Shown here piece after piece: positions 25,489 to 28,289 of a DNA stretch of 46,377 nt; the first letter of the stretch is position 1; every line of letters starts with the position of its first letter. The notes under the pieces are model-generated. The model was not told the origin of the DNA. It made no database searches and was given only the letters and a program-made list of their open reading frames with translations. Origin of the DNA: Verrucomicrobiota bacterium (lineage in GTDB: Bacteria > Auribacterota > JABMQX01 > JAFGEW01); assembly GCA_016931415.1 (NCBI GenBank), contig JAFGEW010000075.1:1-46377 (forward strand), read 5' to 3'. The position numbers and the translations under genes were made by a program.

Positions 25489-25944
25489 TCAGCCGGCCAT
25501 TCTCAGTGTGCCTCCCTTGATGCCGAGTGAGCGCAGCATCTCGCGGTTGGCTTTCTCCTCCCAGGCGGTGCGGATCTGGATTCCCAGCCGGTGCTCGTGT
25601 ACGGGCCTTTGGACGTAGTCGGCGGCGCCCAGGTTCCGGGCGCGGGCAACAATCTCGTCGCCGGCGGCCTTGCCGATGAGGAACACGAGCGTGCCGGGCC
25701 GGTTGTACCGGATCGCCCGGAGCACGTCGAATCCCCCGACAACGGGCATCTCGACCTCGGCGACCACGACGTCGAACCGCTGGGATTCGACCCTGGCCAT
25801 CGTGTCGGTCCACTCAGCCGAGGCCTCGACCAGGAACCTGCACGCCTCAAGTGCCCGGACCACGGAGGCCCGGGTCTCAGGGTCGCTCACCGCGACCAAC
25901 GCCCGAGGCGCCTGCAATTTGCGAGCCGTACGCCGCTTGAACAC
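25489..25944 (-). CDS. Degenerate response-regulator receiver domain protein
   Basis: The 151-aa product is a lone receiver (REC) fold after a basic leader (MFKRRTARKLQAPR). Aligning by eye with CheY, the usual DD pair is SD (VAVSDPETR). The phospho-acceptor Asp is replaced by Glu (FDVVVAEVEMP). The switch Thr region reads FLIGKAA, and the conserved Lys is Arg (YVQRPVHE). It is therefore unlikely to be phosphorylated normally and may mimic the active state or act as a docking module. No histidine kinase is nearby. It is on the same strand as the HTH-ATPase gene and about 115 nt from the small cysteine-rich protein gene. Confidence 0.8.
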   Translation of the reverse strand: MFKRRTARKLQAPRALVAVSDPETRASVVRALEACRFLVEASAEWTDTMARVESQRFDVVVAEVEMPVVGGFDVLRAIRYNRPGTLVFLIGKAAGDEIVARARNLGAADYVQRPVHEHRLGIQIRTAWEEKANREMLRSLGIKGGTLRMAG

Positions 25945-26059: not shown

Positions 26060-26419
26060 TCAACGCACGATCTCGTCTCGAGATCGCCAGAAGGGGCACT
26101 GAGCAAAGCCCGGATTGCAGCAGTAGCCCACGATATGGTCTTCATCAACAGTCAGGGACGAGTCGAACCGGCAGCGGTTAACGATCCGTGCGCGACGATT
26201 GCCGACGATATCGCGCCGGATCGTCACGTACTCCTGATTGTCCGGCCGGGCTGATGGATCCGGCCGGCAAACAAAGCACGAAGCCAAAAGCTGTTGCCGC
26301 CGCGTGAGGTTGAGCGGGGCAAGCCTTTCGAGCAGACGAGCCTTGGCTTCGAGCCGCTCGGCCTCGCTGACCTCAACCGGCTCGGTTGCGCCTGTAACAT
26401 GTGCATGAGCATCGTACAC
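26060..26419 (-). CDS. Small cysteine-rich protein, unknown
   Basis: The 119-aa product starts at GTG 26419 (AAGGG about nine nt upstream). It has a helical acidic N-terminal half (VEVSEAERLEAKARLLERL) followed by a compact cysteine-rich half. CFVC, a lone Cys in VNRCRFD, and YCCNPGFAQCPFW together give six cysteines, enough for a metal site. There is no signal peptide or membrane segment. No family is recognised. Zinc or iron-sulfur binding is inferred from the spacing only. Confidence 0.6.
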   Translation of the reverse strand: MYDAHAHVTGATEPVEVSEAERLEAKARLLERLAPLNLTRRQQLLASCFVCRPDPSARPDNQEYVTIRRDIVGNRRARIVNRCRFDSSLTVDEDHIVGYCCNPGFAQCPFWRSRDEIVR

Positions 26420-26619: not shown

Positions 26620-28179
26620 TCAGCCGGTCTCCAGCGGCAGCACGCGGAGCACCTCGTCGAGCGACGTTTTCCCCTCGGCCGCCTTGCGGACGCCGTCGGC
26701 GGCCAGGGTCGTCATCCCCTGGCCGACGGCGATCGCACGCATCTCGTCGGCCGACGCACCACGCCGCAGCGCCTGGCCGATCTCAGGCGTGACTTCGAGC
26801 AGCTCGGCGATGATGCTGCGGCCGCGGTAGCCGAGCTGGTTGCACTTGGCGCAGCCGGTCGGTCTGCGGAACCCTCTGGGAAGGGAGTCCCAGCTGACTC
26901 CCCCGACGCGGCACAGCTCGACGGCTCGTGCGACGTGCTCGGCGGGGACCTCGGCCTTCTTGCTGCAGTCCGGGCAGAGCAGGCGGACGAGGCGCTGCGA
27001 CGTGGCCAATCGGGTGGCGTCGCCGACCACGAAGGGAGGGCATCCCATCTCGACCATGCGGACGAGGGCCCGGACCGCGTCGTCGGCGTGGAGCGTGGTG
27101 AGCACCAGGTGGCCGGTGATGGCCGCCTGCAGGGCAAGGTTGGCGGTCTCCTCATCGAGCAGCTCGCCGATCATGATCACATCGGGGTCCGAGCGCAGCA
27201 CGGCGCGCACGGCGCGCTGGTACGTCACGCCCTCGGAGGGGTTGACCTGCGTCTGGACCATCCAGGGGAAGACGAGTTCGACGGGATCCTCGACCGTCAT
27301 GGTCTTGACCGTGGGCCCGGCCACGTGGTTGAGGCACGCGTAGAGATTGGTCGTCTTGCCGCAGCCGGCTGGGCCGGTCACAAGGATGAGGCCACGCGGG
27401 CCTTGCAGCGCGCGCAGCAGCCTGGCCCTGTCGGCAGGAGCGTAGTCGATCCGGTCGAGCAAGATCACCGCGCCTGCCAAGGTAAGCAAGCGCGCCGTCA
27501 GGCTCTCGCCGCGCACGGAGGGTACGAAGCACACGAAGACGTCTACCGGCTCGCCGCCGGACTCGAACTTCATGCGCCCCATCTGGGGCCGGTGGCTCTC
27601 GTGCGGATCGCACGCGACGTGCCGCTTCCATTGCTCGATGACGGCCGGCAGGAGACGGATGTCGAACTCGAGGCCGGCGAGCAGCACGCCGTCGACGCGG
27701 TATCGGATCACGGCCGCCCGTGCCGTGCCGTCATCGCCGAGGTGCGGGTGGATATGGATGTCGCTGGCGCGCAACCCGAAGCCGAGCCGGACGCACTGCG
27801 CCACGGCCTGCTGGATGTCGGTTTCGTCGGGGAGCGAGACGGTCTTGGCACCGATCTGGTCGGCGCGCTTGGCGAGCTCGCGCACCAGCGGCCTGATGTC
27901 GGCTCGCAGCTCGATGCGGGGCTCCTCGCCCTTGAGAAAACGCCCGATCTCGGCGCGCTCGAACCGCCACTGACGGCCGACCTTGAGCCCCTTGATCTTG
28001 CCCGTGCGCAGCCAGCGGTAGAAGGTCGGCCTGGTGGTCTTGAGCAGGTCCATCGCCTCGTTGGCATCGAGGAGGTCGGTCGGCGGCGGGCTGCTCTTTG
28101 CGGCCTCCTGCGTTGGCCGCTGCTCTGCTTCCTTGGTCGTGCGCTGTGCGGCCTTCCTGCGGGTTCTCCTGGTCGCCAT
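26620..28179 (-). CDS. GspE/PilB-type secretion ATPase with N-terminal excisionase-like HTH
   Basis: The 519-aa product (ATG 28179; AGGAG five nt upstream) has three parts. Residues 1-35 are basic and Gln/Thr rich. Residues about 36-84 (DANEAMDLLKTTRPTFYRWL, then GKIKGLKVGRQWRFERAEI) are a MerR/excisionase-like HTH. Residues about 100-519 are a type II/IV secretion ATPase: Walker A GPAGCGKTT (269-277), Walker B DPDVIMIGE (331-339), His box TTLHADD (361-367) and a zinc site CPDC (402-405) with CAKC (443-446). Such ATPases drive pilus or type II secretion assembly at the inner membrane. The usual N-terminal MshEN/N1 domain is replaced by the HTH. No pilin, PilC/GspF or secretin is nearby, so it is an orphan. 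Confidence 0.88.
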   Translation of the reverse strand: MATRRTRRKAAQRTTKEAEQRPTQEAAKSSPPPTDLLDANEAMDLLKTTRPTFYRWLRTGKIKGLKVGRQWRFERAEIGRFLKGEEPRIELRADIRPLVRELAKRADQIGAKTVSLPDETDIQQAVAQCVRLGFGLRASDIHIHPHLGDDGTARAAVIRYRVDGVLLAGLEFDIRLLPAVIEQWKRHVACDPHESHRPQMGRMKFESGGEPVDVFVCFVPSVRGESLTARLLTLAGAVILLDRIDYAPADRARLLRALQGPRGLILVTGPAGCGKTTNLYACLNHVAGPTVKTMTVEDPVELVFPWMVQTQVNPSEGVTYQRAVRAVLRSDPDVIMIGELLDEETANLALQAAITGHLVLTTLHADDAVRALVRMVEMGCPPFVVGDATRLATSQRLVRLLCPDCSKKAEVPAEHVARAVELCRVGGVSWDSLPRGFRRPTGCAKCNQLGYRGRSIIAELLEVTPEIGQALRRGASADEMRAIAVGQGMTTLAADGVRKAAEGKTSLDEVLRVLPLETG

Positions 28180-28225
28180 TGTTCTCCTGCCTCCCTTGGT
28201 GCGGGTTGGACCATTAGCAGCTACT

Positions 28226-28277
28226 ACGGTTATGATGCGTAGTTCATCTATCACTAGATAATATAACGGCTATGATG
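28226..28277. promoter_or_regulatory. Direct repeat pair, candidate operator
   Basis: Two 12-nt copies differing at one base (ACGG-T/C-TATGATG at 28226-28237 and 28266-28277) are spaced 40 bp, near four helical turns. One falls between the -35 and -10 boxes of the ATPase promoter and the other just past the predicted start site. Confidence 0.5.
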
Positions 28278-28289
28278 TATAACGGTCAA
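28260..28289 (-). promoter_or_regulatory. Sigma-70-type promoter for the HTH-ATPase gene
   Basis: On the minus strand TTGACC (28284-28289) and TATATT (28260-28265) are 18 nt apart, in a locally AT-rich patch. The start site would be near 28253 with a leader of about 75 nt. Confidence 0.6.

Follow-up and report, generated by a model that had tools for sequence, protein, structure and literature searches.

HTH_17-T2SSE fusion proteins as a probable family of self-regulating DNA-binding proteins with a PilB/GspE-type core

The minus-strand gene at 26620–28179 of the window (the whole analysed stretch of 46,377 nucleotides) encodes P0002, a protein of 519 residues that joins an N-terminal MerR/excisionase-like winged helix-turn-helix (HTH) to a secretion ATPase core. 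Co-linear HTH_17-T2SSE fusions were found as 21 genes in 20 genomes, from the window, Planctomycetota and Riflebacteria. On sequence evidence, the P0002 family probably consists of self-regulating DNA-binding proteins in which the place of the effector domain is taken by a PilB/GspE-type core. The architecture, the single clade and the operator of the family appear to be undescribed; both parts of the protein are known. The architecture was not found in the literature searched, which was the open-licence part of PubMed Central and is thus weak evidence. The initial annotation did not know it as a standard architecture, which holds for that literature, but its recurrence in 20 genomes makes it a family rather than an isolated curiosity.

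The fusion gene and its locus

The HTH_17 domain of P0002 (nt 27931–28074, minus strand, residues 36–83) matches the Pfam profile with E=4e-12 and 46.7 bits against a cut-off of 27, contrary to the concern that the HTH might fail a profile search. The conserved TxYR and KxGxQWRF, residues of the recognition helix and the wing, are also present, placing it in the HTH_17 family, and the NCBIfam model 'excise' gives 38.8 bits with a cut-off of 28.8. The T2SSE core (nt 26644–27807, minus strand, residues 125–512; E=9.5e-92 in Pfam) comprises N2D, the C-terminal ATPase and the four-Cys motif. It contains Walker A GPAGCGKTT, the Asp box VEDPVE, the Walker B Glu (IGE), the His box TGHLVLTTLH and two CxxC pairs, and the profile match together with the first four of these motifs assigns it to the T2SSE/PilB-GspE cores. 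The ATPase motifs had been described as intact; P0002 has Walker A, the Glu of Walker B, the His box and the zinc CxxC pairs, but in its GEIRD motif the usual Arg is Leu. The Pfam scan gave no T2SSE_N/MshEN (N1) match, in agreement with the proposal that an HTH at about residues 36–84 stands in place of the usual N-terminal domain. P0002 stays under the NCBIfam equivalog cut-offs for GspE (336 bits versus 630) and PilB (320 versus 676), and exhibits 34–42% identity to ordinary PilB-type proteins.

The AlphaFold model used, built on a 14-sequence alignment (pLDDT 77; a model with 7 sequences was poor, pLDDT 54), places a PilB-like core beside a winged HTH. The HTH is predicted to contain helices at residues 39–46 and 50–59, strands at 65–67 and 70–74 that form a two-stranded wing, and a helix at 75–82. 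The best Foldseek match of P0002 is PilF (5oiu, E=5.5e-41), and the nearest solved sequence to the HTH is BldC (6ama), a weak match (E=0.08).

The ATG at nt 28179 is preceded by a strong Shine-Dalgarno region, GGGAGGCAGGAG (nt 28184–28195, minus strand), and further upstream by a sigma70-like promoter, TTGACC-N18-TATATT (nt 28260–28289, minus strand). Two promoter-like sites were observed in the upstream region, against 0.2 expected. The HTH codons evolve as protein-coding sequence, with mismatch of 0.28, 0.19 and 0.55 at codon positions 1, 2 and 3, and this protein-level constraint indicates that the HTH is made. A start after residue 90, which would omit the HTH, is therefore contradicted by the upstream ATG with its Shine-Dalgarno region and promoter, and by the constrained codons.

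The neighbours of P0002 in the window are lgt, lspA, a dksA-like gene, ileS, glycosyltransferases, SecDF, yajC, tgt, queA and glnE. Pfam identified no pilus, pilin, secretin or GspF/PilC gene among the 30 predicted window genes, as the initial annotation had said of pilus and secretin genes. A prophage or mobile-element excisionase, small and beside an integrase, does not fit a protein of 519 residues with housekeeping neighbours. As to a defence system, the HTH alone matches mad1, weakly, and this identity was also rejected. Downstream of P0002 lie a 119-residue Cys-containing open reading frame (nt 26060–26419, minus strand), which has no match in Pfam, PHROGs or PADLOC and is absent from related fusion loci, and an orphan single-domain response-regulator receiver (nt 25489–25944, minus strand), which the other fusion loci do not have.

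The P0002 genome contains 12 other T2SSE-family matches, one of them under the family cut-off. One locus (L003:1450–4098, minus strand, G000:C77) encodes an 882-residue Ser/Thr kinase-MshEN-T2SSE fusion (Pkinase E=4e-54, T2SSE E=1.5e-142), another PilB-type ATPase carrying an extra N-terminal regulatory domain. A second (L006:958–3123, plus strand, G000:C124) encodes a 721-residue fusion of MshEN, T2SSE and a response-regulator receiver.

Distribution of the family and constraint on its domains

The initial annotation had suggested searches for the HTH_17 and T2SSE pair across genomes. No full-length relative of P0002 was found in 43 other genomes of the window's phylum, and P0002 as a query for related loci across genome contigs gave no match. 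A query of the HTH, the linker and N2D retrieved co-linear relatives in Riflebacteria. A DNA pattern for the motif PVEL-x-x-PW yielded six fusions from Planctomycetota and Riflebacteria, and a profile search of 392 sampled genomes (Planctomycetota, the phylum of G424, Phycisphaerae bacterium) yielded 16 fusion genes in 15 genomes. Twenty relatives align with P0002 over the full length, and all 21 proteins are about 480–545 residues long.

The PVEL-x-x-PW motif is not specific to the fusions, since seven ordinary planctomycete PilBs also carry it. Pro-Trp follows the Asp box (PVE-x-x-x-PW) in the ordinary PilBs L119, L120, L124, L125, L129, L131 and L132; most PilB-type proteins examined have Gly at the Trp position. 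The PVEL-x-x-PW motif occurred in 0 viral contigs, and a phage origin of the fusion was set aside.

In a maximum-likelihood tree of the 21 fusions and 81 ordinary PilB-type proteins, the fusions form one clade with support 97/99, recovered in 98% of the trees of a bootstrap that had not fully settled. Several independent fusions were rejected on this tree. P0002 is placed within the Planctomycetota-type members and the window ileS groups with its own phylum; thus horizontal acquisition of the fusion gene by the window genome is plausible. Contamination of the contig was judged unlikely, since the closest matches to ileS lie in its own phylum (up to 52% identity, versus up to 47% in Planctomycetota).

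Comparison of the 21 loci, also suggested at the outset, found no gene neighbours common to the whole family. A functional operon was rejected because gltX and other neighbours are common to only one clade of four genomes. Upstream of a Riflebacteria fusion (L095:7768–9638, plus strand) lie a protein with cNMP-binding and HATPase_c domains and an RsbW-like HATPase_c_2 protein.

Among the parts of the 21 fusions, conservation is highest in the HTH, with a mean pairwise identity of 60% (72% in its core) versus 42% for T2SSE. Residues T52, R55, G60, K66, G68, W71, R72 and F73 do not vary in any of the 21 members, nor do the four Cys of the metal motif, C402, C405, C443 and C446. At least one of K275, E297, E339 and H357 is lost in 7 of the 21 fusions versus none of the 81 ordinary PilB-type proteins (Fisher p=6e-6, a value not corrected for relatedness). 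The substitutions differ between members: L153 (the gene of L118) has E339A, L161 and L166 have E339Q, L163 has K275R plus E339H, L158 has H357Q, L167 has H357I and L164 has E297Q. Because of these losses and the conserved HTH, DNA binding appears to be more constrained than ATP hydrolysis across the family. This is consistent with a DNA-binding protein in which the ring fold is retained and hydrolysis can be dispensed with in some lineages. P0002 itself may still hydrolyse ATP, seeing that the Walker A Lys, the Walker B Glu and the His box are kept.

A putative operator in the gene's own promoter

Upstream of the fusion gene, directly after a TTGAC box, the family has the consensus TATCATA-N5-TATGATA-N3-TATGATA, with half-sites starting at 0, 12 and 22. 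A -10-like hexamer lies 17 nt past the TTGAC box in several members, indicating that the half-sites overlie the promoter. When 14 genes were aligned on this putative operator, the half-sites were 74% identical, compared with 35% for the spacers and 28% for the flank upstream. Conservation of the promoter itself could explain some of the half-site identity; the spacing and the near-uniqueness of the site (see below) argue against this.

Upstream sequence sufficed for this test in 17 non-Riflebacteria members, of which 15 have the putative operator over a sigma70-type promoter and 14 beat all 300 shuffles with the 29-base consensus. In L163 it is present at one mismatch, outside the stretch scored against shuffles. 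L165 is borderline, its promoter-anchored score equalling the shuffle maximum; a match with one mismatch lies upstream of that gene (G678:C298:6389–6415) in a register missed by the promoter-anchored alignment. The site is absent from the low-GC member L169 and from the three Riflebacteria members. With the exception of these four and of L165, the fusion genes carry a conserved and specific site in their own promoter, as is expected of an autoregulated factor.

The window copy, CATCATA-gccgt-TATATTA-tct-AGTGATA (nt 28249–28277, minus strand), is divergent. It has 16 of 21 matches to the consensus versus a maximum of 14 in 300 shuffles, and is among the weaker operators counted, with three mismatches to the 17-base core. 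The site of L160, a Planctomycetota member, matches at all 21 of 21 positions. A further direct-repeat copy (D3, 92% identity), CATCATAACCGT of CATCATAGCCGT, lies at nt 28226–28237 of the minus strand.

The 20 gene-bearing genomes were scanned with the 17-base core at up to three mismatches, a scan that chance matches swamp in AT-rich genomes. In 10 of the 12 high-GC gene-bearing genomes besides the window's, the best match lies upstream of the fusion gene, with zero to two mismatches. G749 has no core match upstream of its fusion gene, where the site is divergent, and the divergent site at the fusion gene of G702 scores below one lying within another gene. The window genome (4.06 Mb) has only two core matches at three or fewer mismatches, both with three; one is the window operator and the other falls inside a predicted coding sequence. 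In 70 genomes with no detected fusion, no exact site was found and a one-mismatch site occurred in only two. That scan also covered 10 gene-bearing genomes, of which 8 have a site of zero or one mismatch, always at the fusion gene.

A second operator-like AT-rich site, a three-mismatch pair, lies between divergent genes in one genome (G596:C1:2295768–2295794; L208:1501–1527), one of the genes starting MTWSDEQFAKYRKDGYLFVRGLL. No other intergenic site was seen that might be an additional target.

Proposed regulation and comparison with known systems

In the mechanism that we propose, the N-terminal MerR/excisionase-type HTH would bind the putative operator of three half-sites across the -35 and -10 of its own promoter. 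Binding would occlude the promoter and so repress it; activation is less likely. The PilB/GspE-type core would most likely form a ring or multimer, whereby several HTHs would grip the repeated half-sites cooperatively, and would also act as the switch of DNA binding, either through its nucleotide state or through its docking at a pilus or secretion platform. We infer the binding of the putative operator by P0002, its repressive effect, the ATPase ring as sensor and the signal sensed. The initial suggestion that the protein could sense assembly state and bind DNA receives strong indirect support from sequence, through the site in the gene's own promoter, the conservation of the HTH and the catalytic decay in relatives. 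Against self-regulation, few targets were detected besides the own promoter; a regulator with only itself as target would therefore need a second activity.

In another explanation, the fusion is an assembly or secretion ATPase that acts in trans, or a subunit of mixed PilB rings. The HTH would then serve only to adjust the protein's own level, leaving the operator once the protein is engaged at the membrane. The zinc Cys invariant in 21 of 21 members, the Walker A, Walker B, Asp and His boxes kept in P0002, and the 12 other T2SSE-family matches in its genome are consistent with an autogenously controlled motor, and the gene-level putative operator fits autogenous control. Yet the fusion lacks the N1 domain, by which assembly ATPases are believed to attach to the stator (PMC11656802), 7 of the 21 members have lost catalytic residues, the HTH is more conserved than the motor, and neither pilus genes near P0002 in the window nor family-wide neighbours were found. 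We regard this explanation as unlikely.

Alternatively, the HTH may anchor the motor ring at one chromosomal site, with a role in segregation, anchoring or DNA transport. A near-unique cluster of half-sites beside the gene would suit a tether, and the MerR-like protein RacA has an architectural role in DNA binding (discussed in PMC5859096). The initial annotation had also named a motor tethered to DNA; it is less favoured because the putative site lies within the gene's own promoter, in fixed register with sigma70-type elements like an operator. Most genomes have only three half-sites, in two the site at the gene is not the best genome match, and no partner genes are shared nearby, all of which make a tether quite improbable. 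A chance or decaying fusion, in which a piece of an excisionase precedes a relict PilB paralogue and the HTH is passive, would account for the patchy distribution (15 of 392 sampled Planctomycetota genomes) and the decaying catalytic residues of some members. It is hardly reconcilable with long intact open reading frames in 20 genomes, a single clade, the HTH invariants, the protein-level constraint on the HTH codons and the co-occurring putative operator, and we give it very little credence.

Self-regulation by a DNA-binding protein with a PilB/GspE-type core thus remains the preferred reading, and if true, what was an assembly motor now serves as a switch that binds DNA. This would give MerR/excisionase-like regulators a new type of effector domain, and would provide a route by which a pilus-type ATPase could convey its nucleotide or assembly state to DNA, an open question for Myxococcus PilB signalling. 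More tentatively, the family could represent a regulator class with a hexameric pilus/secretion ATPase core as its sensing and oligomerising domain, in which ATP level or platform occupancy would be read directly on DNA via a cooperative operator of multiple half-sites. Databases may list the fusion proteins as secretion ATPases, a label that would conceal their likely function.

The fusions share N2D, the C-terminal ATPase core and the tetra-Cys motif with PilB/GspE (T2SSE, PF00437). They differ in having a winged HTH in place of N1/MshEN, an orphan locus and relaxed catalytic residues, and in forming a clade apart from the ordinary ATPases sampled. In Myxococcus xanthus, the nucleotide state of PilB signals to exopolysaccharide production (PMC11656802); that PilB is a working pilus motor without a DNA-binding domain, unlike the fusion, and the same PilB review makes no mention of DNA binding. 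BldC is a stand-alone HTH of 68 residues that binds AT-containing direct repeats cooperatively (PMC5859096). The fusions resemble BldC and other MerR-like or excisionase proteins in the HTH family and in the AT-containing multi-repeat site, but add a secretion-type ATPase core, and in their putative site inverted half-sites occur together with direct ones. Euo of Chlamydiae, in the PVC superphylum, is an excisionase-like winged HTH that serves as a transcription factor on multiple boxes (PMC4989314), a role similar to that proposed for the fusion HTH. Euo has tandem winged HTHs and more than 100 target promoters, whereas the fusion has one HTH, an ATPase core and few detectable targets other than its own promoter.
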